The translations under genes and the position numbers were made by a program. DNA of 37,186 nt, from positions 1 through 37,186 of the IMG/VR virus record IMGVR_UViG_3300045973_000904. One strand, 5' to 3'. This document shows, one piece after another, positions 9,770 through 36,765 of the stretch. Numbering within the stretch: the stretch's first letter is position 1; the number at the start of each line of letters is the position of its first letter. This stretch comes from a virus. The notes beneath the pieces were generated by a model. The model had not been told where the DNA came from, did no database searches, and saw nothing but the letters and a program-made list of their open reading frames with translations.

Positions 9770-11463
9770 TGGCTGAAATCACCAAGCGGCAACACATCCT
9801 TATCCGTTGGGGCCAACTCAAGACGGAGCGGGCAAGCTGGTGGAAGCACTGGTCGGAGATTACGCAGTTCATCACTCCACGCCAGGGCCGGTACTTCGTG
9901 CAAGACCGCAACAAGGGCGCACGACGCCACAACAACATTTACGACAGCACCGGATCGCGTGCGCTCAACACCCTGGCCGCTGGCCTCATGGGTGGACTGA
10001 CGAGCCCCGCGCGTCCTTGGTTTCGGTTGGCTACGGCTGACGCGTCGTTGAACAAACAGCCCGCCGTCAAGCAGTGGCTCAATGACTGCACCGAGCTCAT
10101 GCTCACGATCTTTCAGAAGTCGAACACCTACCGCGCGCTGCACAGTATCTACAAAGAGCTTGGTGCGTTTGGCACCGGCGCTGCGGTTATCTCTGCGGAC
10201 TTCGAGAACGTCATCCATATCCATCCGATCACGATCGGCGAGTACGCCGTGGCCACTAACTTCAAGGGGCGAGTGGACACGATCTATCGCGAGTTTGAGT
10301 TGACCGTTGGCCAGCTGGTGCGCGAGTTCGGCATTGAGAATTGTTCGACGAGCACCAAAAGCATGTACGAGCGCGGCACCTTGGACGCGTGGGTCACTGT
10401 GATCCATGCGATCGAGCCGCGACTAGACCGCGACGTAGGCAAAGCGGACACGCTCAACATGCCCTGGTCCGACACCTACATGGAAATCGGCGCCACCGGC
10501 GAACAGTTCTTGCGCGAAGGCGGCTTCGAGAAATTCCCCGCGCTCTGCCCACGGTGGGACGTGGAGGGCGGCGATATCTACGGCAACAGCCCAGGCCAAG
10601 AAGCACTCGGCGATATCAAGCAGCTGCAACACGAACAGCTGCGCAAGTCACAAGCGATTGACTACCAGGTCAACCCGCCACTGCAAGTGCCCACGAGCAT
10701 GAAGAACCGCGAGGTGGAGCGCTTACCTGGCGGCGTCACTTTCGTGGACACGGCTTCGTCGGGTAAGGCTATCCAAACCGCGTTCGATGTGCAGCTGAAT
10801 CTCCAAGAGCTACTTACGGACATTCAAGACGTGAGGGGCCGCATCAACAGCGCGTTTTTTGTGGACTTGTTCATGATGATCTCGCAAGACAACGCAGCCA
10901 CCACACGCATGACGGCCACCGAGGTGGCAGAGCGCCACGAAGAGAAGATGCTCATGCTGGGGCCAGTGCTAGAGCGCTTGCAGGACGAACTACTCGACCC
11001 GCTGATCGAAGTCACCTTTCACATGATGGACAAGGCGGGCATCCTGCCGCCACCACCACCCGAGTTGCAAGGCCAGCAGTTGAGCGTGGAGCTGGTTTCT
11101 ATGCTGGCCCAAGCGCAGCGCGCGGTGGCCACCAACGGCATTGATCGCTTCACCAACGGCTTGACGGCCATGGCGCAGATCAAGCCGGAAGTGCTGGACA
11201 AGTTCGACGCGGACCGATGGGCTGAAGAGTACGGGGACGCGTTGGGCATTAACCCCGATTTAGTGTTGCCCGAAGACCAGGTGCAACAGCTGCGTGCTCA
11301 ACGTGCGCAAGCGCAAGCACAAGCCGCGAAAGCGCAACAAATGAACGTCGCTTCGCAGACTGCCAAGAACCTGGGCGCTACGCCCACCGATGGCGGTAAC
11401 GCGGCCAGTTCAATCATGGATATGTTCTCGCAGGGCTTTGGCGCCGCAGGGGGCGGGCAATGA
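9769..11463 (+). CDS. T7-like portal (head-to-tail connector) protein, 564 aa
   Basis: Dodecameric ring at the packaging vertex. The beginning has the connector pattern: WGQLKTERASWWKHWSEITQ, then PRQGRYF and YDSTGSRALNTLAAGLMGGL, the conserved LAAGLMGGLTSPARPWFRL block near residues 65-90. The middle includes CPRWDVEGGDIYGNSPGQEA. The C-terminal part has TATEVAERHEEKMLMLGPVL, followed by a PP-rich loop and a Gln/Ala coiled tail. Length and motifs fit the phage head-to-tail connecting family. Its ATG overlaps the stop of the previous gene, and its stop overlaps the start of the HNH gene. Confidence 0.93.
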   Translation: MAEITKRQHILIRWGQLKTERASWWKHWSEITQFITPRQGRYFVQDRNKGARRHNNIYDSTGSRALNTLAAGLMGGLTSPARPWFRLATADASLNKQPAVKQWLNDCTELMLTIFQKSNTYRALHSIYKELGAFGTGAAVISADFENVIHIHPITIGEYAVATNFKGRVDTIYREFELTVGQLVREFGIENCSTSTKSMYERGTLDAWVTVIHAIEPRLDRDVGKADTLNMPWSDTYMEIGATGEQFLREGGFEKFPALCPRWDVEGGDIYGNSPGQEALGDIKQLQHEQLRKSQAIDYQVNPPLQVPTSMKNREVERLPGGVTFVDTASSGKAIQTAFDVQLNLQELLTDIQDVRGRINSAFFVDLFMMISQDNAATTRMTATEVAERHEEKMLMLGPVLERLQDELLDPLIEVTFHMMDKAGILPPPPPELQGQQLSVELVSMLAQAQRAVATNGIDRFTNGLTAMAQIKPEVLDKFDADRWAEEYGDALGINPDLVLPEDQVQQLRAQRAQAQAQAAKAQQMNVASQTAKNLGATPTDGGNAASSIMDMFSQGFGAAGGGQ

Positions 11464-12047
11464 AACATTGCACTGTATGCAAACAATTAAAAGAGGATGA
11501 CGCGTTTTACCGCCGTAAAGCAGGAGGGTTGTATTCCTCGTGCAAGAAGTGTGATATCGCAAGGCGTAGTGCTTGGACGTTGAACAACCCCGAGAGAGTG
11601 AGGGCGCAACAAAACACTTGGCGAGTAGCAAATCAGGATCACGTTACCCGTCGTCAAAAGACATCGCGCAAAGCGAACCCCGAAAAATCACGTGCACATG
11701 TTGCGAAGTGGCGGGCGGCGAACACAGACGCGGCCCGCGCTGCGGTATCAGTTTGGCGCAAAGCTAATAAAGCCTACGGCGTTGCTATGCAAAACGCACG
11801 CGAAGCTGCAAAGATAAAGGCAACGCCGAAGTGGGCTGACAAAGCCGCGATATCGGCGATGTATGCCGAAGCGCAAAGGACGGGGATGCAAGTCGATCAC
11901 GTCGTGCCTTTGAGGTCTAAGTGGGTGTGTGGTTTACATACACCTGCGAACCTCCAACTCTTGACCCCTCATGACAACGCCGTAAAAGGCAACCACCACT
12001 GGCCAGACATGCCAATCAAAGGACACACCCATGGTTTTCAACCCTAA
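11460..12047 (+). CDS. HNH endonuclease with zinc ribbon, 195 aa
   Basis: An N-terminal zinc ribbon is visible: CTVCKQLKEDDAFYRRKAGG with a second pair CKKC near residues 24-27. A middle region repeats an N-P-E-x-x-R-A ... W-R-x-A-N motif about four times (28-105), likely a helical DNA-binding stretch. The HNH core is at about 143-185: MQVDHVVPLRSKWVCGLHTP, then ANLQLLTPHDNAVKGNHH, with the catalytic-type DH and the N of ANLQ and final N/H residues present. It overlaps portal by 4 bp and the spike base gene by 17 bp. It is probably a free-standing homing endonuclease; a packaging role as in some HNH-terminase pairs is less likely because it is distant from terL. Confidence 0.85.
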   Translation: MKHCTVCKQLKEDDAFYRRKAGGLYSSCKKCDIARRSAWTLNNPERVRAQQNTWRVANQDHVTRRQKTSRKANPEKSRAHVAKWRAANTDAARAAVSVWRKANKAYGVAMQNAREAAKIKATPKWADKAAISAMYAEAQRTGMQVDHVVPLRSKWVCGLHTPANLQLLTPHDNAVKGNHHWPDMPIKGHTHGFQP

Positions 12048-18826: not shown

Positions 18827-19357
18827 ATGGCAGACACGGACTTTTTATCGTTACTCACCGGCGCCGGTTCGCTACTTAAAGCCTCCGGCACCGCGGCGGC
18901 TTCGGCGGCGCAGCGCACATCGTTGCAGTACCAGGCTTCGGTAGCGCGCACCAATGCGCTACTCGATCAAACCAAGGCCAGCCTCGCCGATCAAGACGGA
19001 CAAATCGCCGTCCAAAACCTTCAACTCAAGAACGGCCAGACGTTTGGCACGCAGCGCGCAAACCTCGCGGCCAACGGTACGGACCTTGGCCAAGGCTCCG
19101 CGAACGACATTCTGACGAGCACCAAGATCATGGGCCAGCGCGATGCGGACCAGTTGCAAACCAATGCAATGCGCACCGCTTGGGGCTACAAGGTCCAAGC
19201 CGTGAACGACACCAACAACGCCAACGCCCTCGATGCGGCAGCGTCCAGCATCAGCCCTGGCAAAGCCGCAGCCGCGTCGCTGCTTGGCAACGCGACGCAA
19301 GTATCAAGTGCGTGGAACACGTTTAGCAAAGCCACCGACGGCATCACGAACTGGTAA
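18827..19357 (+). CDS. Internal virion (T7 gp14-like) core protein, 176 aa
   Basis: Starts MADTDFLSLLTGAGSLLKAS. Long Ala/Gln-rich amphipathic helix pattern (AAQRTSLQYQASVARTNALL, GQTFGTQRANLAANGTDLGQ, GSANDILTSTKIMGQRDADQ) as in the small ejected core proteins. Their N-terminal hydrophobic stretch helps form the outer-membrane channel in T7. The motif QRANLAANGxDLGQGSANDILxST is typical of the family. It leads a three-gene ejection block. Confidence 0.75.
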   Translation: MADTDFLSLLTGAGSLLKASGTAAASAAQRTSLQYQASVARTNALLDQTKASLADQDGQIAVQNLQLKNGQTFGTQRANLAANGTDLGQGSANDILTSTKIMGQRDADQLQTNAMRTAWGYKVQAVNDTNNANALDAAASSISPGKAAAASLLGNATQVSSAWNTFSKATDGITNW

Positions 19358-19362
19358 AGATA

Positions 19363-21546
19363 ATGCCCACCGTCCCCACGTATGAAACCCAAGTAACCCC
19401 CCACGGACTGCCGGATGTACGCGTACAAGGCGTGGCGTCGTCCGTTGCCGAGGCCGCCCAAAGCAATGCGCGTATCACGCAGCAAGTCGGGCAGGACATG
19501 GTGAACTTCGGCACCGAAGGAGTCCGCGAAGCAGCACGCGAGCAGATGATGGCCAATCAGGTGCGAGTCGATTCAGCTTTGAACGATGTCCGAGCAGCGC
19601 AACAAAAACTCACCTACGACCCCGCCGATGGCTACTTGCAACACAAAGGTGCCGCAGCCGTGCAGCCGAGCGCAACGGGGCAGGGGTTGCAAGAGCAGTA
19701 TGGGGAGAAGTTGCAGTCCACGATCAGCAGCGCCTCGCAAGCCCTGGGCAACGATGCACAGCGTCAAGTGTTTGCAACACAAGCGCGACAGCTGGCCACT
19801 CAGTTCGACGGCCACATTCAAAGCCACGTACTGCAAGAGTACAAAGCCTTTGGGCTTGAGACACAGAAGGGCACGATCGAGTTAGCGGGCGACACCGCGA
19901 TGAAGAACTGGTCAAACCCCGATCTGATTGATTCGCAAATCGAAAGCGTCAAGGCCGCAGTGTGGAAGGCTGGCCAAATCAATGGCGACCCCGCTAATCT
20001 GGTGGAAGCCAAGACGTTGCAAACGGTCAGCAAAGTGCATTTCGGCGTTGTCGAGGCGGCACTCCAAAACAACAACCCCGAGTACGCGCAGAAGTACATC
20101 CAGCAGTACAAGGGCGACATGACGGCGGGCGACTTGCTCAAAGCCAGCGGTCAGATTCGCTCAGACATATCGGGCCGCGTGGCCACGAGTGCAGCGCAAA
20201 CCGCGATGATGAAGTACAACACCGCGTTCCAGCCCACCGCGTCGGACCGCATGCTTCAAATTACGCAGGGCGCCGAAAGCAAGGGGCAAGACTTCAAAGC
20301 TGACGGCACCACAGCGCTCGTGTCGTCAGCGGGCGCAAAGTACAAGATGCAGGTGATGCCGGACACGGCGAAAGACCCAGGCTTCGGGATCAAGCCCGCC
20401 GAGTCAGACACCCCTGCCGAGTACAACCGCGTGGGCACCGAGTTGCTTGGCGCCCTGGTTAAGAAGTACGCGGGCGACAGCGCTAAGACCTGGGCCGCCT
20501 ACAACGCGGGCGCCGGTAACGTGGACAAGGCTATCGCGGACGCCGGACCTAACGGCGACTGGATGGCCGCGTTGGCCAAGTACCAATCGAAGGCGAACCA
20601 CGACCAGACGGTCAACTATGTCAAAGGCAACGTCGCGCAGCTGCAAGGCGGTGGCGGCTCACCCGCGATCCCTTCGCTCCAAGACATCCACAACAATATC
20701 CGCGAACAGCTAGGCACGAACCCCGATCCCACGATCTTGGCGAAAGCCCTGGCCGAAGGGTCACGCCAGTATCACGACGCCGTTGCGGATCGCAAGACGC
20801 AAGGTGACAACGCCGTGATGCAAGCGCAGCAATTCCTCGCGCAAAACGGCGGCGACTACACAAGCCTGCCCCAAGCACTCCAAGCACAAGTCGTGGCGCT
20901 GGCGCCCGACAAGCTGGTGGACTTGCAGACATACGCCAAGAACATCGCGAATCCGCCCAAGGCCGACAACATGGGCGCGTACCACACTGCGATCGAGCAC
21001 CCCGACGAGTTGGCCAAGATGCCCGACGCTCAGTTCCACCAGTTCATGGCCACGAACTTTAGCGAGACAACGCAAAAGCAAATCGCCAAGCTGCGACAAG
21101 ACGCGCTCACTGGCAAGCTGGACGCCAGCGCGGGTGGACTGGACTCGAAGACTTTGGTGTCGGAGTTGAGTAACCGCCTCACGTCCTTGGGTATCGAGGC
21201 CAAGCCGACAGCCTCGGACACCAAAGGCAGGGAGCGCGTGGGCGCCATTCAAAAGTACCTCACCGATTCAATCTTTGCGCAACAGCAGCAGCTTGGTCGC
21301 AAGATGACGGCGCAAGAAATCACGCAACACGTTGATCAAAAGTTTCTCAAGGACTTCACCTTCCGCAACACGGTGTTGGGCGTTACTTTGCCCGGCACCT
21401 ACACCATACCTTACTTGAAGATGCAGCAAGGGGATATCCCGAGCGATCAAGTGGACCAAATCAAGCAAGCACTAGCCAAGCAAGGCAATGCGAGCCCTAC
21501 CCCCGATCAAATCATGCGCACCTATTGGGCGCGGAAAGCTAAGTAA
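19363..21546 (+). CDS. Internal virion protein with lytic transglycosylase domain, 727 aa
   Basis: Ejected with DNA to open the peptidoglycan. A long helical Gln/Ala-rich N-terminus (1-290) precedes a soluble lytic transglycosylase fold at about 295-420: MLQITQGAESKGQDFKADGT with the catalytic Glu in GAESKG near residue 304. SSAGAKYKMQVMPDTAKDPG and WAAYNAGAGNVDKAI follow, the usual GxxQxMPxTA and AYNAGxG motifs. The substitution K-Y-K-M-Q in place of GLMQ is minor. The rest is helical. The stop overlaps the next ATG (TAATG). Confidence 0.88.
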   Translation: MPTVPTYETQVTPHGLPDVRVQGVASSVAEAAQSNARITQQVGQDMVNFGTEGVREAAREQMMANQVRVDSALNDVRAAQQKLTYDPADGYLQHKGAAAVQPSATGQGLQEQYGEKLQSTISSASQALGNDAQRQVFATQARQLATQFDGHIQSHVLQEYKAFGLETQKGTIELAGDTAMKNWSNPDLIDSQIESVKAAVWKAGQINGDPANLVEAKTLQTVSKVHFGVVEAALQNNNPEYAQKYIQQYKGDMTAGDLLKASGQIRSDISGRVATSAAQTAMMKYNTAFQPTASDRMLQITQGAESKGQDFKADGTTALVSSAGAKYKMQVMPDTAKDPGFGIKPAESDTPAEYNRVGTELLGALVKKYAGDSAKTWAAYNAGAGNVDKAIADAGPNGDWMAALAKYQSKANHDQTVNYVKGNVAQLQGGGGSPAIPSLQDIHNNIREQLGTNPDPTILAKALAEGSRQYHDAVADRKTQGDNAVMQAQQFLAQNGGDYTSLPQALQAQVVALAPDKLVDLQTYAKNIANPPKADNMGAYHTAIEHPDELAKMPDAQFHQFMATNFSETTQKQIAKLRQDALTGKLDASAGGLDSKTLVSELSNRLTSLGIEAKPTASDTKGRERVGAIQKYLTDSIFAQQQQLGRKMTAQEITQHVDQKFLKDFTFRNTVLGVTLPGTYTIPYLKMQQGDIPSDQVDQIKQALAKQGNASPTPDQIMRTYWARKAK

Positions 21547-24500
21547 TGGCCGAGTCATTCAACGAATTCGACGACGCAGCCGCGTCCGTCGTTCAAGGCC
21601 AAGCAACGGCAATTCGCAACAACCTATACAACGCCGTGCCCCAAAACCCCGCCAACGTCGCAGAGCATGCGCGTATCGCGAAGGGCTTGGGCATCCCACT
21701 CGAATCGGTGCAGTCCGATGTGCCCACGGCAAAACAACAAGCGGCCATGCAGTCGTTCGACGCTGACAAAGTCGTAACGCAGTATCCGCACCTCGCACAG
21801 TTCTTGACTGACCCAACTAACGCAGCAAAGTCCCACAACGACCTTACGACTTTGGCGGCCACGGAGCAATCAGTCAAGAACTTGCCCAAATTGCGCCCCG
21901 CAGCAACGACCTCGCTAGAGGGCGAAGACACCGGTGTGGGCGCTTGGCTTGAAAGCAACGCGAAGTCGGTGGTGGACATGCCACTGGCCGCGGCGCAAGG
22001 ACTAGGCTACAGCTTTAACCGAGCGGGCAAAGCGGTCAGCCTCACGTTGGGCGCGTTCCCCGTCATGTACGACAAGGCCGCCAGCCTTATCACCGGCAAA
22101 GACACCTACGACGCACAGGACGCGTATTTCAAGCGCTTCGTGCAACCCCTGGACGATGACGCCAGCGCTTTCCAACTCTCACCAAACGCGACGTTTTTGG
22201 AGAAGCTGACGCACGGCGTCGGTGGCCTGGTGGGTGCGCTCTCACAAATCACACTCACCGGTGGCATGGCCGAAGCCCCCGCCGCGATAGACGCAGCCGC
22301 ACCCGCGCTGACGAAGGTGGCCGAAGCCGTGACACACGCCACGCGCACGATGGCGTTCCCCTCGATCACCGCTGCCGTGAACACCGGCAACGACGTGTAC
22401 GCACACACCGGCAGCTTGGCCGCCGCCGTGAAGGCAGCATCGACCGCATACGCCACGAACACAGCGATGGGGGTGCTACCCCTATCCCTTGAAGGTAGCG
22501 CCCTAACACGGGTGGCTACAGGCTTTCCAATCGGGGCGCTGACGGGTGAACTCAACCGCCAAGTGTCTAACGCAAGTTTGCCAGGGGGCATGCAACAACC
22601 GGCGGGAGTCGAAGAGGCGATCATCAACGGGCTGACGGGTTCGATGCTGGCGGGCACCATGGGTGTGAAACCCGCACCTCACGAAGTCGCATTGCGCGAC
22701 AACTACGAAGCCGCACAAAAGGCTACACAAGCCGAGCACGGCATGCAAGCCCTGCAAGCCCTGGGCGAACTGGCCGGTGCGTCCGAGTTGCGCAAGCATG
22801 ACGCGCCAGCGTTTCGTGACTTCGTGCGCCAAGTCACAGAAGACGGCCACTTGCCCGAGGTATGGGTGGACGGCGAGACATTGGCCCAAGCGTTTAAGCA
22901 GTCCGGCGTATCGCTGGAAGAGTTGAGCAAAACAATGCCAGGCGTCGCGGCGCAGCTGCATGAGACAAGCCAAACCGGCGGCGATGTGCGCATCCCCACC
23001 GAGGACTTTGCGACCAGTATCGCGGGCGGCCCCCTTGAGAAGGTGTTGCTGCCTCATTTGAAAATCGACCCCGACGGCATGACATTCGCGCAGGGGCAAG
23101 AGCACATGGCGCAGCAGGGCGCCGACATGCAAAAGCAAGCCAAGGGCTTGGTGGAGCAAACGGTGGCGGTAGACGCACGCGAGCAAGAGGTGAAGGCAAT
23201 CGTCGGTGATGTGCAAAGCCAACTCGAAGCCACTGGCCGCTATCCCACGGACGTGGCCAAGCAGTACGCAGCCATGCACGGCGCGTTTTACGACAACATG
23301 GCCGAGCGCATGGGCATCACCCCCGCCGATATGCGTGCGCGTATGCCTTTGCGGATTCGCGGAGAAGGTGCGGGGGGCTTTAGTCAAGGGGGCGAGGGTG
23401 TTGGACCTTTCGGTCCGGTATCGCATGATTTTCATCACGATGCGACGGGTGCTATTGCGCACTTGATGAACGAGAAAACAGGTGAGGCCGTTGAGGCCTT
23501 CGTTCACCCTGAGCTTGGCCCTATCGCCTTTGTGTACGGCAATGAGCAATTCGGCCTTCGTCACATCGAAGCAAAGCGTGGGGCCGAATTTTTGGAGCGC
23601 ATCCCTTCCATTTTGGAAAGTGGAAAAGTTGTTAAGGATGAAAACGGACTGCCGAGGGCCTACATCGTAGAAGAGGGCGATCCCGCGCATGTGGCGGTGA
23701 TTCGGCTAGATTGGGATGGAGAGCAAAAGACTTGGCTTGTTACTTCTTACCCTGATACCGTGGGGAAATTTGGGGAGCCGGTTGTCGCAGGAAGCATACC
23801 GAGAGGCGACACTTTGAGTGCTACGGGTAATCCAAGCACTACCAGCTTAGACAGTGTAACAAAGGCCTTGCAGGATTACAAGCAAGGGTTCGGCGATCGC
23901 GGCAGCTACAACCCCGCCACCGGTGAAATGGCCTTACTCAAAGACGCGGACTTATCCACGTTCTTGCATGAGTCCGGCCACTTTTTCCTTGAGTCTATCC
24001 ACGACTTGGCCAACTCCGAAGCGGCGCCACTGGCGATCAAATCGGACTTTGACACGTTGCTCAAATCTTTCGGTGTGGAGGGCACCACCGCAGAGGACCG
24101 CCTACTCAACTGGTCAAACCGCGATATCGAGGGCAAGCGCGAAGGCCACGAGAAATTTGCCGAGGACTTCGAGAATTACCTAATGACCGGCAAGGCGCCG
24201 GTGCCTGAGTTGCAAAGCATGTTCAGCCGCTTCCGCAGTTGGCTTATGTCGGTGTATCAGTCCATGCGTGGCGAAGTGTCGCCCGAAGTGCGCGGCGTGA
24301 TGGACCGAATGTTCGCCAGCGAACAAGCGATCAATGACGCGGAGAAGGTGCGCGCCTACGCCGTGCCTGATTTACCAGGTGATAACGGTGCCCTGGTTGA
24401 CGAGTACAAAGCCCTCGGCAAAGAAGCCACAGAGCAAGCGATCAGCGATATGCAAGCGCGCTCTATGCGAGATTTGAAGTGGGCCAGCAACGCTAAGAAC

Positions 24501-27500
24501 AAAGTCATCAAGGACTTGCAACGCGAAGCCGCAGGGCTACGCCGCGAAGCGCGTATCGACGCCACGCGTGAAGTGATGACGCAGCCCGTCTATCGCGCGT
24601 GGACTTTCCTAACAGCCAAGAATGGCGAGAAGGTAGTCGGCGAGAAGGTCAAGGGTCAAAACCGTGGCGTCAATTCCGAAGTGGATAACTTGTTCGAGGC
24701 AATTGCCAAACTCGGCGGGCTTGACCGTGCCGAGGTATCGAGCGCGTGGGGTATCGACGCCAAGGAAAAGATGGAGTCGGGCATTTTCGGCAAACCGGTG
24801 GTGCGCAAATCGGGCGGCAAGTCCATGCACCACATGGCCGAGTTACTGGCCGAAGAGGGGTACTTGATCCCCCACGAGCACACGCAACCCCACGAACAAC
24901 TCGAAGCGTTGTTTGACGATCAACGCCGTGGCACGAATCGGTATTCGATTCAGCGTGATATGCAGCAGGCCTACGGAGATAAACCTGCCCCCAATTTGCC
25001 GGAGTTGGGTTTTGGAAAACTCCGCACCGAAGACTTGCGTGCCATGTTTGGCGACAAGCCCGAGGCGTTATGGCGCAAGGTTTCCGAGCGCCGCATGACG
25101 AGCGACGTGGACGGTTTGCACCCTGACATCGTGGCCGAAATGTTTGGCATGCAATCTGGCCGCGACCTGGTGCAAGAGCTGGCCACGATTGAGCACCCTG
25201 GCACGGTTATCGAAGGGCGCACCGACCGGCTAATGCTTGAACGCCACGGCGACCTGGTTGATCCGGTGAGTGTGGAGCGCGCAGCCGAGGCGGCGATCCA
25301 CAACGAGGTGCGCGCCAAGATGATGGCCACGGGCCTCAAGATGTTCACCAAGTCGCCAATGTCGGCGATCGAGATCAACAAAGCCGCGAAGGCTGCGGCT
25401 GACACTGCGGTGGCGCAGAAGGTGGTGGGCGAGTTGCGCCCCGCGCAGTACAGCGCAGCCGAGACAAAAGCGAACAAAGCACTTTTGAAGCTGGCGCCTA
25501 AAGACCCAATGGGCGCGGCCAAAGCACAACGCGAGGCGCTTCTCAATAATCGGTTGTTCAAATCAGCCAGCGAAGCGGTGGCCGACGTGCGTACCGGATT
25601 GACTTACCTCAAGCGTTTGCAAAAGCCAAGCGTGCGCGGCAAGATCGACATCGACGTGCGCGATCAGATTGACGAATTGCTGGCGCGTTTCGACTTGCGT
25701 GCGAACCCAAGCGACGCGCCCACCCGTGCGCAGTTGAACCTTGAAAAGTGGATCGAAAGCCAAGCCGCCGCTGGTTACTCTCCAACGATCACGCCGGACA
25801 TGCTGGCGCAGGACTTTCGCAAACCTTATCGTGAGTTGACCGTGGAGCAATTTCGCGGGATGGTGGACACCGTGCGCTCGATGGAACACATGGGCAAAGA
25901 CCGCAACACGTTGTCAATCAACGGCGAAAAGCAAAGCCTTCACGACTTCGTGCGCAACCAACTCGTGCCCAAGTTGCAAGAGCGTGGCGAGCGGTTCACG
26001 GTGTACGAGGTTTACACCAAAGCCGAAGACCGAGGCTTGGGACACATGGCCCTCGCACTCGATCACGTTTCCAGCTGGATGCGGGGCCTTAACGCCCAGC
26101 TAAAGCCGCAAGAATACAAGCGCAACGACTACGACCGCCACGAGCTTCTAGGCCCCTTCGGTAAAGCGGTATTCGATCCGGTGATCGACGCTAACTACAA
26201 CAAGGTGCGGATGCTCAAGGGTTTGTCCGAAGACTTCCGCGTGAAGGCTGCGGAGCTAGGTTCGGAGTGGCAAGAGTCCTTGCTGGAAATGTTGCCCAAC
26301 ACCAGGTTGATAGATGCGATCGCAACCCGTGAAGCTGGCCAGCCGGTGTACATGAAACTGACGCGCGGCAAGATGGTTGGCTTGGCCGTCCACGTCGGCA
26401 ACGAATCCAACTTTGACAAGTTGACCAAGGGTTACGGCTGGCAACCCGAGGCGGTCTGGCAATACCTGCACGACAACATGACCGCAAAGGATTGGGAGGC
26501 GGTGCAACACGTTTGGGACTTGTACGAGAAGCACTGGCCGGACATGCAAGCGATGTACCGCCGTCTTGGCCAAACCACACCCGACAAGATCGAGCCCCGC
26601 GCGTTTCACACGCCCTTTGGCGAAATGCGTGGCGGCTACGCGGCGATCAAGTACGACCCTTTGCGATCACGCAAGGGTGAACGCGACGCAGCTGGTGCGG
26701 CGATCAACCCAGGTGAGGGGTTGTTTGGGCGAGATTACTTCTCACGCACTGCCACGACAAACGGCAGCATGAACAAACGGATCGACGGGTACACCGACGC
26801 GATTGATTTGAACTTTCACACGATCGAGCGCAGCATGCAAGAGTCAATCCACGACCTCGCATACCGTGAAGCGCTTATCAACGCTAACAAGATCATCGAG
26901 CACTCGGACTTTCGTAACGCGTTTTTCAAGGCCTACGGCCGCGAAGACTACGCAGCACTGCAAGATTGGATCGGGCGTATCGCGAACGCTGACAACTCGG
27001 ACCGTGCCGTGGGTGCGCTTGGCCGCTTTATGCAATACACCCGCACCGGCATGGTAATGACCGCGATCGCATTGCGCGCTACCACTGTGCTCAAACACGG
27101 CGGCAGCGCCGGTATCAAGACAATGGGTTACTTCGGTGGAGGCGGCGAGAAGTATCTCGCGCACCGGTTCGCCGCTATCGGTACTGACTACACGAATCAA
27201 ATCGCCATGGCAAAAGAGAAGTTCGGCGAAATCAATGCGCGGTTGTTGCAACAGGACCGCGACTACCGAGCCACGGCCAGCAGCTTGTTTGAGCCGGAGT
27301 CCTTGCAAAGCCAAGCGGAGCGCTTCGGGCATTCTGCCGTGGCCTGGGCTGACATGATGACGGCGGTACCAACAGCATGGGCTGCCTACGACCGCGCTAT
27401 CGCCGAGGGCGTGCCCAAAAACATGGGTGGTACCGGCGCCCCCATGACCGAGGCACAAGCCGTGGCCTACGCCAACAAGATCGTGCGCGAGGCCCACGGG

Positions 27501-28109
27501 TCAAACGTCGAGTCGGCCAGGTCGAACGTGATGACGGCGCCGAGTGAAGGCGTCAAGATGTTCACCACTTTGTACGGCTTCATGAATAACAGCTACGGGC
27601 AAATGGCCGACAGCGTCAACAAACTGCAAACGCCTGGCATTGCCAAGCCCGAAGTGCTGGCGCGCACCTTAATGGCGATCATCGTGCCCGCGTTGTGGGC
27701 TGAGTTGATTTCCGAGGGGCTGCCGCACAAATTGGACAGCGCCGGTGAGTGGGCTTTGTGGTCTGCGAAGGCGATCACTGGCGAAGTGGCGGGCATGGTG
27801 CCGGTGGTGCGTGATGCGTGGAGTATGGCCAAGGGTTTCAGCCATGCGGGCGTTGTAGGCGCAGAGTCTTGGATGTCCACGATGGTCAACGCTGGCCGCG
27901 ATGTGGTCCACCTGGCACAAGGCAAGGAAGTGAAAAAGCCGATTCAGGATATCTCTGACGCGGTGGGCATGGGCTTGCATATTCCTGGACTTGGCCAACT
28001 TGGTAAGTCCGCACAGTACATGGCCGACGTGAGCAACGGCAAACAGCACCCCGAAAACGCGGGGCAGTACATCAAGGGCGTACTGATTGGGCCACCTAAG
28101 AAAGAGTGA
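21546..28109 (+). CDS. Giant polyvalent ejected virion protein with nuclease-like and metallopeptidase-like motifs, 2187 aa
   Basis: Likely analogue of the largest T7 core protein. Residues 1-600 are mainly helical, with a hydrophobic Ala/Gly stretch at about 140-370. Residues 618-751 look like a phage Barnase-EndoU-ColicinE5/D-RelE-type (PBECR-like) nuclease: AVEAFVHPELGPIAFVYGNE, QFGLRHIEAKRG and KTWLVTSYP. Next comes SYNPATGEMALLKDADLSTF followed by LHESGHFFLE, an HExxH motif at 808-812, resembling the small metallopeptidase domain in polyvalent proteins. Long charged helices fill 950-1800. The C-terminus (from about 1830) has GRFMQYTRTGMVMTAIALRA and LYGFMNNSYGQMADSVNKL, like LPD38-type domains. 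The nuclease segment is richer in T and has a different codon style from its surroundings. Enzymatic activity is not shown. Confidence 0.8.
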   Translation: MAESFNEFDDAAASVVQGQATAIRNNLYNAVPQNPANVAEHARIAKGLGIPLESVQSDVPTAKQQAAMQSFDADKVVTQYPHLAQFLTDPTNAAKSHNDLTTLAATEQSVKNLPKLRPAATTSLEGEDTGVGAWLESNAKSVVDMPLAAAQGLGYSFNRAGKAVSLTLGAFPVMYDKAASLITGKDTYDAQDAYFKRFVQPLDDDASAFQLSPNATFLEKLTHGVGGLVGALSQITLTGGMAEAPAAIDAAAPALTKVAEAVTHATRTMAFPSITAAVNTGNDVYAHTGSLAAAVKAASTAYATNTAMGVLPLSLEGSALTRVATGFPIGALTGELNRQVSNASLPGGMQQPAGVEEAIINGLTGSMLAGTMGVKPAPHEVALRDNYEAAQKATQAEHGMQALQALGELAGASELRKHDAPAFRDFVRQVTEDGHLPEVWVDGETLAQAFKQSGVSLEELSKTMPGVAAQLHETSQTGGDVRIPTEDFATSIAGGPLEKVLLPHLKIDPDGMTFAQGQEHMAQQGADMQKQAKGLVEQTVAVDAREQEVKAIVGDVQSQLEATGRYPTDVAKQYAAMHGAFYDNMAERMGITPADMRARMPLRIRGEGAGGFSQGGEGVGPFGPVSHDFHHDATGAIAHLMNEKTGEAVEAFVHPELGPIAFVYGNEQFGLRHIEAKRGAEFLERIPSILESGKVVKDENGLPRAYIVEEGDPAHVAVIRLDWDGEQKTWLVTSYPDTVGKFGEPVVAGSIPRGDTLSATGNPSTTSLDSVTKALQDYKQGFGDRGSYNPATGEMALLKDADLSTFLHESGHFFLESIHDLANSEAAPLAIKSDFDTLLKSFGVEGTTAEDRLLNWSNRDIEGKREGHEKFAEDFENYLMTGKAPVPELQSMFSRFRSWLMSVYQSMRGEVSPEVRGVMDRMFASEQAINDAEKVRAYAVPDLPGDNGALVDEYKALGKEATEQAISDMQARSMRDLKWASNAKNKVIKDLQREAAGLRREARIDATREVMTQPVYRAWTFLTAKNGEKVVGEKVKGQNRGVNSEVDNLFEAIAKLGGLDRAEVSSAWGIDAKEKMESGIFGKPVVRKSGGKSMHHMAELLAEEGYLIPHEHTQPHEQLEALFDDQRRGTNRYSIQRDMQQAYGDKPAPNLPELGFGKLRTEDLRAMFGDKPEALWRKVSERRMTSDVDGLHPDIVAEMFGMQSGRDLVQELATIEHPGTVIEGRTDRLMLERHGDLVDPVSVERAAEAAIHNEVRAKMMATGLKMFTKSPMSAIEINKAAKAAADTAVAQKVVGELRPAQYSAAETKANKALLKLAPKDPMGAAKAQREALLNNRLFKSASEAVADVRTGLTYLKRLQKPSVRGKIDIDVRDQIDELLARFDLRANPSDAPTRAQLNLEKWIESQAAAGYSPTITPDMLAQDFRKPYRELTVEQFRGMVDTVRSMEHMGKDRNTLSINGEKQSLHDFVRNQLVPKLQERGERFTVYEVYTKAEDRGLGHMALALDHVSSWMRGLNAQLKPQEYKRNDYDRHELLGPFGKAVFDPVIDANYNKVRMLKGLSEDFRVKAAELGSEWQESLLEMLPNTRLIDAIATREAGQPVYMKLTRGKMVGLAVHVGNESNFDKLTKGYGWQPEAVWQYLHDNMTAKDWEAVQHVWDLYEKHWPDMQAMYRRLGQTTPDKIEPRAFHTPFGEMRGGYAAIKYDPLRSRKGERDAAGAAINPGEGLFGRDYFSRTATTNGSMNKRIDGYTDAIDLNFHTIERSMQESIHDLAYREALINANKIIEHSDFRNAFFKAYGREDYAALQDWIGRIANADNSDRAVGALGRFMQYTRTGMVMTAIALRATTVLKHGGSAGIKTMGYFGGGGEKYLAHRFAAIGTDYTNQIAMAKEKFGEINARLLQQDRDYRATASSLFEPESLQSQAERFGHSAVAWADMMTAVPTAWAAYDRAIAEGVPKNMGGTGAPMTEAQAVAYANKIVREAHGSNVESARSNVMTAPSEGVKMFTTLYGFMNNSYGQMADSVNKLQTPGIAKPEVLARTLMAIIVPALWAELISEGLPHKLDSAGEWALWSAKAITGEVAGMVPVVRDAWSMAKGFSHAGVVGAESWMSTMVNAGRDVVHLAQGKEVKKPIQDISDAVGMGLHIPGLGQLGKSAQYMADVSNGKQHPENAGQYIKGVLIGPPKKE

Positions 28110-31638: not shown

Positions 31639-31723
<85 letters not shown>

Positions 31724-31745
31724 ATTTCAGGAAAGAGAGCATTGT

Positions 31746-33995
31746 ATCAAGAATTCCGTTCACACCAGTGGATTACTGGAAGAGTTTGTCGGCACCGTCT
31801 CGGGACACCGTGATGGACATGGGTTTGTGCAACGAGATGATGGATCGCCAGACATCTTTTTGCCACCGAACGAAATGCGCGCGGTGCTGCACCGTGACCG
31901 CGTCAAAGCACGTGTCGTTCGCTTAGACCGCAAAGGTCGTCCAGAGGGGCGCGTGGTTGAAATTTTGGAGCGTTCCAAGCAGCCCATCATTGGGCGTTTG
32001 CTGCAAGAAAGCGGTGTCTGGTTGGTTGCGCCGGAAGACAAGCGCTATGGCCAAGATGTGTTGATCAACAAAGGTGCAACGGCCAAAGCGATGGTCGGCC
32101 AAGTGGTCGTAGTTGAACTGACCGAGCCACCGAGCTTGTATGGCCAACCTGTGGGTCGCATCAAAGAAGTGTTGGGCGAGGTGGATGACCCCGGTATGGA
32201 AATCGAAATTGCCGTGCGCAAATATGGCGTGCCGCATGAGTTTTCAGACGCTTGTTTGGCGATGGCACGTGGCCTGCCCGACAAGGTGCGTCCGCAAGAC
32301 AAAAAAGACCGCGTAGATTTAACCGATGTGCCCCTGGTCACCATCGATGGTGAAGATGCGCGCGACTTTGACGATGCCGTGTATTGCGAGCCCACCAAAG
32401 TGGGTAAGGGCAAAGGCTGGCGCTTGTTGGTCGCGATTGCCGATGTGAGTAACTATGTGGAAACTGGCAGCGCGATTGACGTCGATGCCTACGACCGCGC
32501 GACCAGCGTGTACTTCCCTCGTCGTGTGATTCCCATGTTGCCCGAGAAGCTCTCGAATGGTTTGTGTTCACTGAACCCAGACGTCGAACGCTTGTGCATG
32601 GTGTGCGACATGATGATCAACGCATCCGGTGATGTGGAGGCGTATCAGTTTTATCCTGCAGTGATGTTCAGCCACGCGCGTTTCACGTACACCGAAGTGG
32701 CGGCGATTTTGTCGAACACACGCGGTCCAGAAGCGGCCAAGCGCAAAGACCGCATTGATGATTTGATCAACCTGCACGATGTGTATGGCGCCTTGCTCAA
32801 AGCCCGTCATGTGCGTGGCGCCGTCGACTTTGAAACCACCGAAACACAAATCGTGTGTGACGAAAGTGGCCGCATCGACAAAATAATTCCGCGTGTGCGC
32901 AACGATGCCCACAAGTTGATTGAAGAGGCCATGTTGGCTGCGAACGTGTGTAGCGCTGACTTCATCTTGCAAAGTAAGCACCCTGGCTTGTTCCGTGTGC
33001 ACGAAGGTCCATCAGCTATGAAGATTGATGTGCTGCGTGGCTACCTCAAAGCCACAGGTGTGGGTTTGACGGTGGGCGACAACCCCAAGCCTGCCGAATT
33101 TCAAGCCATTGCAGAGGCGACAAAAGAGCGCCCCGATGCACAGCAGATTCATTCGATGTTGTTGCGCTCCATGTCGCAAGCGGTGTACACGCCGGACAAC
33201 GACGGCCACTTTGGTTTGGCGTTTGAGGCTTACACCCACTTCACCAGCCCGATTCGTCGCTATCCCGACTTGTTGGTGCACCGCGTCATCAAAGCGATTT
33301 TGCTCAAGCGCAAATACACCTTGCCAGCTTTGCCCACCCCCGGCGAGGCGCACGCCAAGTTGGCGCGTCGTTTGGCCTCGCGCGTGCGTGAGCCAGAAAA
33401 TAAATTGGTTGTTAAAACCAAGCCGACGCCCGACCAACAAGCGTGGGAAGCCGCAGGCTTGCATTGCAGTGCCAATGAGCGACGCGCCGATGAAGCGAGC
33501 CGTGATGTGGAGGCTTGGCTCAAGTGCAAGTACATGCGCGAGCATTTGGGTGAAGAGTACGGCGGTGTCGTTACGTCTGCCACGGGCTTTGGTTTGTTCG
33601 TGACCTTGGATGCGATGTACGTCGAAGGCTTGGTGCACATCACCGAGCTGGGTGGCGAATACTTCCGCTTTGACGAAATGCGTCAAGAGTTGCGAGGCGA
33701 GCGCACTGGCATTCGCTATGGCATTGGCTCGCGCGTACGCATTCAGGTTAGCCGCGTGGACCTAGATGGGCGCAAGATTGATTTCCGATTGGTCCGAGAA
33801 GCCGATGAGTTGTTGCCACGCAATGGCAAAGAGGCATCCGGTTCGCCCATCCAGAACTTCAAGAGTGCGGTGAAAAAAGCGTTCACCAAAATTGGTGGCA
33901 AAGACGGACGCGGTGAACCTAAATCTGCTTCTGGCGCGCCGCGTAAATCGGGTGACAAAAAAACCGCAGCCAAGAGTCGTCGCTCTCGCAAGTGA
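31746..33995 (+). CDS. rnr: Ribonuclease R, start codon uncertain, about 749 aa
   Basis: Processive 3'-5' exoribonuclease for structured RNA. Two cold-shock-like domains come first (EEFVGTVSGHRDGHGFVQRD; GRLLQESGVWLVAPEDKRYG). The RNB catalytic domain carries the metal-binding run DGEDARDFDDAVYCE at about 32347-32391 and RVHEGPSAMKID and HFTSPIRRYPDLLVHRVIKA further on. A C-terminal S1 domain (GVVTSATGFGLFVTLDAMYV) and a basic tail rich in Lys/Arg/Ser end the protein. The usual N-terminal HTH of long RNase R forms is absent. In frame there is no ATG/GTG/TTG between the tRNA and the first domain; ATC at 31746 with a purine-rich GGAAAGAGAG upstream is my best start, and ATG at 31638 through the antisense tRNA is the alternative. 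Confidence 0.85.
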   Translation: MKNSVHTSGLLEEFVGTVSGHRDGHGFVQRDDGSPDIFLPPNEMRAVLHRDRVKARVVRLDRKGRPEGRVVEILERSKQPIIGRLLQESGVWLVAPEDKRYGQDVLINKGATAKAMVGQVVVVELTEPPSLYGQPVGRIKEVLGEVDDPGMEIEIAVRKYGVPHEFSDACLAMARGLPDKVRPQDKKDRVDLTDVPLVTIDGEDARDFDDAVYCEPTKVGKGKGWRLLVAIADVSNYVETGSAIDVDAYDRATSVYFPRRVIPMLPEKLSNGLCSLNPDVERLCMVCDMMINASGDVEAYQFYPAVMFSHARFTYTEVAAILSNTRGPEAAKRKDRIDDLINLHDVYGALLKARHVRGAVDFETTETQIVCDESGRIDKIIPRVRNDAHKLIEEAMLAANVCSADFILQSKHPGLFRVHEGPSAMKIDVLRGYLKATGVGLTVGDNPKPAEFQAIAEATKERPDAQQIHSMLLRSMSQAVYTPDNDGHFGLAFEAYTHFTSPIRRYPDLLVHRVIKAILLKRKYTLPALPTPGEAHAKLARRLASRVREPENKLVVKTKPTPDQQAWEAAGLHCSANERRADEASRDVEAWLKCKYMREHLGEEYGGVVTSATGFGLFVTLDAMYVEGLVHITELGGEYFRFDEMRQELRGERTGIRYGIGSRVRIQVSRVDLDGRKIDFRLVREADELLPRNGKEASGSPIQNFKSAVKKAFTKIGGKDGRGEPKSASGAPRKSGDKKTAAKSRRSRK

Positions 33996-33999
33996 GTTA

Positions 34000-34020
34000 C
34001 TGCTAAAGCAGTTTTGCTTT
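34000..34020. terminator. Short bidirectional terminator between rnr and nnr
   Basis: CTGCT-AA-AGCAG followed by TTTT (34000-34015) reads as a small terminator on the plus strand. The overlapping AAAGCA/TGCTTT (34005-34020) can serve the minus strand. It fills the 23-bp gap between two convergent genes. Confidence 0.5.
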
Positions 34021-35512
34021 AACGCACCGATGCAGCAAGTGACGCTGCATCGAGTGCAGGCCCCGCGCTAGGCCAAGCATCGGCCACATGGCCGTGCGCG
34101 AACACGGCTTGGCAGGCAGCTTCAAATACATCCTCATGGCGCGCGATGTATGCGCCCATCAAGCCCGCCAACACATCCCCTGTGCCTGCGGTGGCCAGCA
34201 AAGCATTGCCTGAGCCATTGATGACGGCGGTGTGGTGTGGGCTGGCAATGAGGCTGCCCGAGCCTTTCAGCACCACCACGCATTGAAACGTATCGGCCAA
34301 TTGCTGCGCGGCATGCAAACGGTTTTGCTGCACGTCTTTGACGGTGCAGTTAAGCAGTCGTGCGGCTTCCAATGGGTGCGGCGTGAGCAAGGTAGGCTTT
34401 TGGCGTGTGCTGCGTTTTTTCAGCAAGGTTTGCAGCGACGTGTCGCGTGCAATGGCATTCAGCGCATCAGCATCCAGCACCAATTTCTGTGAAGATGACA
34501 GCACGTTGTGCAACAAGGCATGCATGCCATCGCCCCCGCCGCAGCCGCACACCACAGTGGATGTTTTGAGGTCCAACTCCACAGGCTTTCGCACCATCAA
34601 TGCAGGATGTGCAGCGGTGACCGCGTGGCGTGCGGCTTCGTCCATCAAGCCCAGTAGCACGCGACCAGCACCGCCATGCAACGCAGCTAAGCCTGCCAGC
34701 ATCGCAGCGCCAGACATGCCGTGTGCGCCACCCAAGACGGACACATCTCCAAAGCTGCCTTTGTGGCTGTTGTGTGGTCGGTCGGTCTGAGCTGCAGCGT
34801 GTTGTTGCAGCCAGGCTGCTGGTGTTGTCGAGGGCGCCACGCCTAAGTCGTTGAACCACACTTGGCCTGCGGCATCTTGGCCGTCGGCGGTGAACAAGCC
34901 AGGCTTTAGGGTGAGCAGACTCAAGGTATGGTGATGGGCTCGAGTGTGGGCGGGTGCGCGATGTGGCTGGGTCGTGGTGCTTAAAAATTCGCCTGTGTCT
35001 GCCAATAAGCCGGTGGGAATGTCTACGCATAACACTGGCTTTTTGCTGGCGTGAATGGCGCTTAGCCATTGCGCCATCAAACCTGCAGGTGCGCGTTGGG
35101 TACCAATGCCGAGGAGGGCGTCGATGGCGAGGTCAAACTGTTGGGGTGGTTGTTCTGCAAAGGTCACGCCTGCGGCTTTGGCGCGATGCCAGGCTTGGCA
35201 GGCATCTGTGGGGGCTTTGGTTTCGTTGCCCAGCCACGTGACGATGGGTCGTTTGCCCCAGGCTTGCAAATGAACGGCAGCTTCTAGTCCATCGCCGCCG
35301 TTGTTGCCGGGCCCGCAGGCAATCCATACGATGCGCGCATGCGGTGCAATGGCCATGGCCAATTGCGCGGTGGCTAGGCCAGCGCGTTGCATCAAGGTGT
35401 TGCCCGGAAGTGCGGCTTGTGCTTGAAGCTCTAAGGCTTGGGTCTGCGCAACGCTGTGCATTGGCCATCGGGCTTGGCTGCTCAGCTGTTGCGTCAGGCC
35501 TGGTGTGTTCAT
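34019..35512 (-). CDS. nnr: Bifunctional NAD(P)H-hydrate epimerase / ADP-dependent dehydratase, 497 aa
   Basis: Repairs hydrated NADH and NADPH. The N-terminal YjeF_N epimerase domain (about 15-225) contains GPGNNGGDGLEAAVHLQAWG at 67-86 and IDALLGIGTQRAPAG. The C-terminal ribokinase-like dehydratase domain (about 245-497) contains GSFGDVSVLGGAHGMSGAAM, LTPHPLEAARLL and the GTGDVLAG signature at 443-450. The fused order and length are those of E. coli Nnr. The start overlaps the dadA stop by 4 bp (ATGA), so both genes form an operon. It is host chromosomal and converges on rnr. Confidence 0.93.
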   Translation of the reverse strand: MNTPGLTQQLSSQARWPMHSVAQTQALELQAQAALPGNTLMQRAGLATAQLAMAIAPHARIVWIACGPGNNGGDGLEAAVHLQAWGKRPIVTWLGNETKAPTDACQAWHRAKAAGVTFAEQPPQQFDLAIDALLGIGTQRAPAGLMAQWLSAIHASKKPVLCVDIPTGLLADTGEFLSTTTQPHRAPAHTRAHHHTLSLLTLKPGLFTADGQDAAGQVWFNDLGVAPSTTPAAWLQQHAAAQTDRPHNSHKGSFGDVSVLGGAHGMSGAAMLAGLAALHGGAGRVLLGLMDEAARHAVTAAHPALMVRKPVELDLKTSTVVCGCGGGDGMHALLHNVLSSSQKLVLDADALNAIARDTSLQTLLKKRSTRQKPTLLTPHPLEAARLLNCTVKDVQQNRLHAAQQLADTFQCVVVLKGSGSLIASPHHTAVINGSGNALLATAGTGDVLAGLMGAYIARHEDVFEAACQAVFAHGHVADAWPSAGPALDAASLAASVR

Positions 35513-36765
35513 CGCTGAAGATGCAAGCGTTCAAGGCCCAAGCCTTGCAAATCGATGTCTGGGCTTTTGCCGTTGATGCTGTCAGCCACCACACGCGCGC
35601 TGCCGCAGGCCAAAGTCCAACCACTGGCGCCGTGGCCTAAGTTGAGCCACACGCCAGACACGCCACTGGCACCCACGAGGGGTGGTCCATCGGGCAGCAT
35701 GGGGCGCGAGCCTTTCCACACTTGCACGTTGTCTTGCGTGCGAGCAGCGCCCGGGAACCAGTTGTCGAGCACGCGGTACAGCGTTTTGATGCTGGCAGGG
35801 TCGTGTCGCTTGGCGTTGCCGCCAATTTCAGAGCCGCCCGATACACGCACGCGTTGGCCTAATCGGCTGATGGCTACTTTGTACTGTTCATCGATGACGC
35901 CACTGCGTGGGGCATCCAAGGGTTCGCGCACGGCTGCACTGATGGCATAGCCATGTACCGCTGCCAAAGGAATGCGCAGCCCCAAGGGGCGTACAAGCTG
36001 TGCGCTGGCCAAGCCCGCACACACCACCACGGCATCAAACTTTTCGCCCATGTCTTGTACAGAAGTTCGAATGGTTTTTGGTTGCGCGTTAGAGAGAGGG
36101 AGCACGCCCGTGTTGAAGTGAAATTTCACACCCAAGGTCTCAGCTTCGCTTTTGAGCAGCAGCGTGAATTGGCGGCAATTGCTCACTTCATCTTCGGGGA
36201 AGTGAATGGCTTGGGCTAGCGCAGTCTCGGGGTTCAGTGCGGGCTCAATGCCGCGGGCTTCTTCGGCGCTCAATGTTTTGAAGCTCAGGCCTGCATCACG
36301 CATGACTTGCAAACCGGCTTGCATCAGCTGTATTTCACGCTCCGTGCGCAGCAGCACCATGAAGCCTTGGCTGCGTTCGTGCTCCAAGTTCAAGGTGTCA
36401 GACAGGGTGTGCATGCGGTGATTGCTGTATTCGGCCAAGCGCAGCATGCTGGCTCGGTTGCGCGCAAACGTCGTGGGGTTGCATGCCTTGCGCATTTGCC
36501 AAAGCCAGCGCCAATCGGCCAAGCTGGGGCTAGAAATGCGTAAAGGGGTGTCGCGCTGCCATAGGTGGGTGAGTACGTGTTTGAACATACCGGGGCGTGC
36601 CCAGGGGGCGGCGTAGCCTGCCGAGGCAACGCCCGTGTTGGCAAAGCTGCATTCTTCGGCGGCGGCGCCGTTGCGCTCAAACACGCTCACTTGGTGGCCA
36701 AGGGTGGCCAGTTCGTAGGCGGTGGTGATGCCAATCACGCCTGCGCCAATCACGGCAACCTTCAT
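35509..36765 (-). CDS. dadA: D-amino acid dehydrogenase, small subunit type, 418 aa
   Basis: FAD-dependent enzyme that oxidises D-amino acids to keto acids at the inner membrane. The N-terminal Rossmann motif VIGAGVIGITTAYELATLGH at about 5-24 and the acidic VFERNGAAAEECSFANTGV are typical of DadA. FPEDEVSNCRQFTLLL and GRSRPMLPDGPPLVG-like sequence (GSRPMLPDGPPLVGASG) with LNLGHGASGWTLACGSARVV close the FAD site. AAGGA lies seven bases before the ATG. Length is normal. The classic partner alr is not visible. Confidence 0.92.
   Translation of the reverse strand: MKVAVIGAGVIGITTAYELATLGHQVSVFERNGAAAEECSFANTGVASAGYAAPWARPGMFKHVLTHLWQRDTPLRISSPSLADWRWLWQMRKACNPTTFARNRASMLRLAEYSNHRMHTLSDTLNLEHERSQGFMVLLRTEREIQLMQAGLQVMRDAGLSFKTLSAEEARGIEPALNPETALAQAIHFPEDEVSNCRQFTLLLKSEAETLGVKFHFNTGVLPLSNAQPKTIRTSVQDMGEKFDAVVVCAGLASAQLVRPLGLRIPLAAVHGYAISAAVREPLDAPRSGVIDEQYKVAISRLGQRVRVSGGSEIGGNAKRHDPASIKTLYRVLDNWFPGAARTQDNVQVWKGSRPMLPDGPPLVGASGVSGVWLNLGHGASGWTLACGSARVVADSINGKSPDIDLQGLGLERLHLQR

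Follow-up and report, generated by a model that had tools for sequence, protein, structure and literature searches.

The window analysed here (the whole stretch of 37,186 nucleotides, IMG/VR record IMGVR_UViG_3300045973_000904, positions 1 to 37,186) raises the question of how a nuclease-like segment and an HExxH motif, placed side by side in one phage protein of 2187 residues, are related to each other and to the rest of the chain. The initial annotation treated the two as equal partners against the host. Comparison with homologs shows that there is a single main swap slot, which the nuclease occupies here and other domains occupy elsewhere, and that HExxH, together with a glutamate-bearing helix, belongs to the invariant scaffold.

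Genomic context and family assignment

The gene is, as initially read, one open frame on the plus strand with an ATG start (21546-28109), and the core protein and transglycosylase genes named as its predecessors are found directly upstream as a gp14-like gene and an SLT gene; with a tail fibre/spike gene downstream, the protein is thus encoded among virion genes (Table 1). The head genes of the window are of the epsilon15/BPP-1 type (GP7 major capsid protein, head-tail connector), and the phage is a BPP-1-like, short-tailed podovirus of the BPP-1/epsilon15 type. Judging from gene order and orthology, the protein is likely ejected with the DNA; virion proteomics naming it was not found in the literature examined. 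An Endonuclease VII/HNH-like gene (11460-12047) immediately follows the head-tail connector gene and lies ahead of the major capsid gene. The right edge of the window (31639-36765) carries a tRNA-Leu (CAG) gene on the minus strand and genes for RNase R, a bifunctional NAD(P)H-hydrate dehydratase/repair protein and an FAD oxidoreductase; it is probably bacterial host DNA, with the phage sitting at the tRNA-Leu gene, and owing to these host-like genes the window probably represents an integrated copy. A search for a second att copy near the tRNA-Leu end gave no repeat of at least 12 bases within the window.

Table 1. Features of the carrier gene and its upstream neighbours (window coordinates; residues refer to the 2187-aa protein).
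Feature	Residues	Position	Strand	Basis
gp14-like internal virion protein gene, upstream		18827..19357	+	Pfam T7_gp14 E 4e-5 (just under cut-off); PHROG 418 E 2e-23
SLT transglycosylase gene, directly upstream		19363..21546	+	Pfam SLT E 1.6e-10
Whole gene, scaffold protein, BPP-1 Bbp10 ortholog	2187 aa	21546..28109	+	ORF, ATG start; tblastn; PHROG 9880
LPD22 domain	31-113	21636..21884	+	Pfam E 2.2e-14, above cut-off
Scaffold block immediately ahead of the slot, ends ...RMPLRI	545-604	23178..23357	+	found in 141 homologs
Cargo slot	605-784	23358..23897	+	junction length variation; unrelated contents
N-side Phi-x-Q	F612-S613-Q614	23379..23387	+	104/115 N flanks
PBECR1 nuclease-like core	651-738	23496..23759	+	Pfam; model and fold matches; alignment
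C-side Phi-x-Q, five residues before Arg785-Gly786	Y778-K779-Q780	23877..23885	+	114/116 C flanks
Zincin-like peptidase region (predicted)	785-930	23898..24335	+	HExxH 152/152; model; fold matches
HESGH; predicted zinc ligands H808 and H812, predicted catalytic E809	808-812	23967..23981	+	invariant 82/82
Second helix HEKFAEDFE; E869/E876 invariant, candidate third zinc ligand	868-876	24147..24173	+	82/82 each
Second, milder variable junction	1017-1157	24594-25016	+	2-255 aa over 140 homologs, SD 65
C-terminal conserved scaffold	1158-2187	25017..28106	+	alignment; block spacing constant

Concerning the family, tblastn identifies as orthologs Bbp10 of Bordetella phage BPP-1 and large proteins of Caulobacter, Pseudomonas, Acinetobacter, Cobetia, Vibrio and Xanthomonas phages, and a profile search places PHROG 9880 over residues 771-2187 of the 2187-aa protein (E 3e-287). 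Among near homologs the aligned C-terminal scaffold is 59-83% identical. Bbp10 (AAR97676.1; Rauchvirus) is alike in gene order, in LPD22, in having PBECR1 in the same slot, in HExxH and in the short motif Phi-x-Q (defined as [FLYIMV]xQ) on both sides of the slot, with an identity to the window protein of only about 26-38%. Differing annotations hide this single family, since the orthologs L237, L240, L241, L242, L244 and L246 and the BPP-1 records bear labels such as lysis, crystallin beta/gamma motif and coil containing protein. Limnohabitans phage DC33 (L007, PQ492659.1) is filed as Inoviridae, yet has 39 kb and a podovirus-type ejection protein with ART cargo, the filing being probably a taxonomy error.

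The protein belongs to the phage-type polyvalent proteins described by Iyer et al. 2017 (PMC5512222), i.e. multidomain proteins encoded beside virion genes and bearing PBECR1, MPTase and LPD domains, for which injection and MPTase processing were proposed. It shares their multidomain make-up and virion-gene neighbourhood, combining LPD22 and PBECR1, both above the Pfam cut-off, with a conserved HExxH region in one large protein. The single fixed slot and the bracketing motif of the window family are not described in the examined passages of that paper, and BPP-1 is not mentioned in it. The paper also describes mosaic proteins of Helicobacter prophages (jhp1044), a set of orthologs that differ in their PBECR and other domains; in the jhp1044 type several domains are duplicated or rearranged, whereas in the present family the scaffold of the ejection protein is fixed and contains one bracketed slot. 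Residues 700-1000 of Bbp10 were also used as a seed for the CLCA_X zincin-like family (Lenart et al. 2013, PMC3650047), covering the same HExxH region as that of the window protein; the published consensus is HExxHxxxD, whereas the window protein reads HESGHFFLE, the last residue being mostly Glu in its family, and no cargo slot is described for CLCA_X. Searches of the PDB gave no credible sequence-level relative. An LPD38-like C-terminus, proposed initially, is not borne out by the Pfam scan, which gives no LPD38 at E<=0.1; the LPD domain detected is the N-terminal LPD22.

One main slot with exchangeable contents

The positions of conserved blocks were compared across a set of 165 non-redundant proteins, drawn from viral contigs, from genomes and from phage records. 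The junction between residues 608 and 779 varies in length from 9 to 1919 aa (SD 356, n=141 homologs), and apart from it and the milder junction at 1016-1157 the block junctions show an SD of about 20 or less. The boundary between the nuclease and HExxH parts is sharp, residues 605-784 being exchangeable and the conserved scaffold running from 785 on. Typing of the slot contents by Pfam (85 slot clusters of at least 100 aa) gives ART-PolyVal (29) and PBECR5 (10) as the commonest, further contents being GNATs, LPD3, LPD23, PBECR3, PBECR1, DUF6782 metallopeptidase, LPD37, RadC, MuF_C, zeta toxin, GGDEF and others. A further 22 homologs have a nearly empty slot.

Exchange is evident between close relatives. 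The nearest scaffold relative of the window protein, 80% identical, holds PBECR5 in the slot instead of PBECR1; L048, L049 and L061 each match L059 at 98% identity across the C-terminal scaffold blocks 9-12 but carry unrelated cargos, and L096 and L100, 94% identical, differ by a clean insertion. In the swapped pairs homology stops at the N motif and restarts on the C side, i.e. the sharp breakpoints lie at Phi-x-Q. In one homolog (L002) an extra helical-looking insertion of ~160 aa (residues about 579-734) is found outside the main slot, at scaffold position about 546.

The nuclease-like domain in the slot

The segment initially described as PBECR-like (618-751) is confirmed by Pfam, which places PBECR1 at residues 651-738 with 29.9 bits against a cut-off of 27.6 (E 8e-7) in the whole protein and with 35.1 bits (E 2e-8) in the slot alone. 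An AlphaFold2 model of residues 606-784, built from 45 sequences, reaches pLDDT 86-97 over most of its core, drops to 59-75 in the last strands and is low in the C-terminal linker; it displays a helix followed by four strands. Its best match is CdiA-CT 7m5f (Foldseek probability 0.96, E 0.013; VIA Z 5.7, rmsd 4.1, 92 aligned), further matches being BrnT (Z 5.4) and HigB2 and RelE (Z 3.6-4.4), with Z 3.4-5.7 over the top matches, and RelE/BECR-fold toxins occupy most of the top 16 structural-match rows. Since Z below 8 is modest, it is the coherence of this match list that supports a BECR/RelE-like nuclease fold for the modelled domain, in agreement with the Barnase/EndoU/RelE fold considered at the outset.

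In the alignment, one helix column is His in most PBECR1 relatives, including Bbp10, whereas the window copy has R678 there, with H673 five residues before; according to Iyer et al. (PMC5512222), one PBECR family has Arg at the same helix position. T733 in the late strand is kept, within a Ser/Thr column that is at least 90% conserved. With R678 at the place of the usual His, RNase activity and its target are to be taken as putative. The PBECR1 domain of L195 (ORF residues 1994-2153) likewise has Arg where His is usual in the helix, resembles the window copy in an RRGAE stretch, and possibly forms with the window copy an Arg-type PBECR1 subgroup. A search for the PBECR1 core on plasmids gave no match.

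The conserved HExxH region

The HExxH noted initially at 808-812 is there as HESGH, and the motif is present in 152/152 homologs with a complete segment, which shows that it is not due to chance (about 0.1 HExxH would be expected in 2187 aa, by our estimate). H808, E809, H812, E869 and E876, which would make up the metal-ligand set and catalytic residue, show no variation in 82 diverse rows. As PBECR1-only rows misalign in a joint alignment, the slot and the HExxH region were modelled separately. In the model of residues 765-1030 (pLDDT 82.6) a hairpin is seen together with the HExxH helix and a further helix on which E869 and E876 lie; ahead of the HExxH helix this fragment has only two strands, against the three-stranded sheet of a zincin-like MPTase.

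In VIA alignments of this model the zincin metalloproteinase domain of anthrax lethal factor recurs, most rows showing Z 4.2-5.1 over 90-113 residues at 17-21% identity; anthrax lethal factor is also the template that Iyer et al. gave for the N4-type MPTase (PMC5512222). Foldseek returned no zincin among its matches. A zincin fold around residue 808, as suspected initially, is therefore upheld by the low-Z VIA matches (4-5) and the invariant Glu helix and not by Foldseek, i.e. supported, not strong. Pfam on 83 HExxH regions gave only weak scattered matches; Tox-MPTase4, for example, was hit in 6 members at a best E of 0.0015. We predict, with moderate confidence, that region 785-930 is a zincin-like peptidase. 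An extra HExxH lies N-terminal of the scaffold one in L009, L017, L020, L042, L053, L062 and L071; as DUF6782 metallopeptidase is among the slot contents, such an additional peptidase may be one of the cargos.

A short motif brackets the slot

Phi-x-Q is found in 104/115 N flanks and 114/116 C flanks of distinct slots, whereas stretches picked at random from these proteins contain it in 23-27%. On the C side its usual place is 2 or 5 residues ahead of RG, and the spacing of the motif varies. It was first noticed on the discovery data, and a hold-out check came later, on members of the family that the discovery set did not include and that are <90% identical to any protein in it: among these the motif occurs in 10/15 N and 14/15 C flanks, the N side being weaker in distant members, and HExxH is present in every complete case. 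Empty slots keep it in 19 of 22 cases, usually as a single copy, which suggests that the moved unit is cargo plus one motif. At the BLAST-defined junctions of tandem cargos, which are not fully independent of each other, it occurs in 71/94 versus 36%.

PBECR1 copies in other protein families carry Phi-x-Q at chance level (7/31 on each side); the motif hence belongs to the scaffold. At the DNA level the motif is diverse, with 69 and 88 versions, and in 0/103 genes are the N and C copies identical, which points to a constraint on the protein and not to a DNA site. Two origins are ruled out by these same counts, namely Phi-x-Q as a property of the nuclease module and a target-site duplication as the source of the paired motif.

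Proposed processing of the carrier and alternative explanations

We propose a virion-carried cargo carrier in which the zincin beside the slot processes the protein at or near Phi-x-Q, a reading to which we give about an even chance. Its stricter form, in which the zincin recognises Phi-x-Q and excises any effector between two copies, so that the scaffold is a self-processing carrier, is offered more tentatively. The homolog comparison shows the architecture, the exchange of cargo, the sharp breakpoints at the motif and the invariance of the metal-ligand set; delivery, proteolysis and cargo activity are what we infer for the 2187-aa protein. The fixed scaffold consists of the LPD22 N-terminus, the predicted zincin-like peptidase (about 785-930) and the long C-terminal part, and phages of the BPP-1-like group swap effector domains at 605-784, the window phage having a PBECR1 RNase-like domain there. 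The scaffold would be packaged and then ejected with the DNA; the zincin would cut at or near Phi-x-Q, separating the N-terminal part, the cargo and the C-terminal part, and the freed cargo would act on its own in the host. One cut would split the scaffold and two would also free the cargo, and this would account for the retention, in empty-slot members, of the peptidase motif and in most cases of a single Phi-x-Q. Among polyvalent proteins, processing by an MPTase has published precedent, e.g. P1 DdrB (PMC5512222). In some copies the Q is followed by Pro, which is unusual for a scissile bond after Q and counts against processing, as do the weaker N-side motif of distant members and the moderate support for the zincin fold.

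The main rival explanation is that Phi-x-Q is an inherited, conserved recombination linker without cleavage: the carrier would be ejected whole, its cargo would act in cis, and the zincin would have another job, such as virion maturation or periplasm passage. Breakpoints that coincide with conserved flanks are indeed what homologous recombination would give; empty-slot members keep HExxH, which hence is not needed only for freeing cargo; and the N4 virion RNA polymerase has an MPTase, yet is packaged unprocessed (PMC5512222). The persistence of the Phi-x-Q amino acids across so many DNA versions, with N and C copies never identical, argues against a mere linker, and the varying spacing and the copies between tandem cargos exceed what passive inheritance predicts; we consider cleavage-free inheritance less likely than processing.

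Phi-x-Q could also be structural, the slot being a loop within the zincin fold whose ends the motif anchors, flanked by a helix and first strand on the N-terminal side and by the hairpin and HExxH helix on the C-terminal side. In line with such a layout, empty-slot homologs run directly from PLKV into GAYHPE...HESGH, a strand may be missing from the HExxH-region model given its two-stranded hairpin, and some covariation exists between 574-604 and 802-810. Inter-segment pairs, however, make up 14/50 of the top couplings versus 43% expected, i.e. there is no overall enrichment, and Phi-x-Q between tandem cargos stands away from the fold, so that an anchoring role appears improbable.

That nuclease and peptidase both act on the host as effectors at the time of infection, and together disable translation or competing elements, agrees with the presence of the PBECR1 fold and HExxH and with the ability of MPTases to be effectors (PMC5512222), but is very improbable, since the peptidase is invariant with any cargo or none and cargos differ on 98%-identical scaffolds, unlike arms-race effectors, and since R678 replaces the usual PBECR1 helix His and LPD38 is absent. 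The initial view of two co-equal anti-host effectors thus gives way to an exchangeable nuclease and a peptidase retained whatever the cargo, for which a processing or scaffold role fits better than an anti-host one.

Implications for BPP-1-like phages

Polyvalent proteins, PBECR, MPTase and domain mosaicism are already known, and polyvalent proteins with suspected self-processing were proposed in 2017 (PMC5512222); a defined cut site for such self-processing was not found in the literature examined. Neither a defined slot in the Bbp10-type family nor its bracketing by Phi-x-Q was found in the literature examined, mostly non-subscription; this is no proof of novelty. With one main slot, a two-sided candidate site, natural pairs with empty or swapped slots and an invariant peptidase motif that can be mutated, the idea of self-processing becomes directly testable.

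The contents of the slot form a natural catalogue of effectors that may reach the host before a phage expresses any gene of its own. If the proposed processing is true, the ejection proteins of BPP-1-like phages would resemble polyproteins that are cut at a standard site, and a cargo swap would adjust the opening attack on the host.
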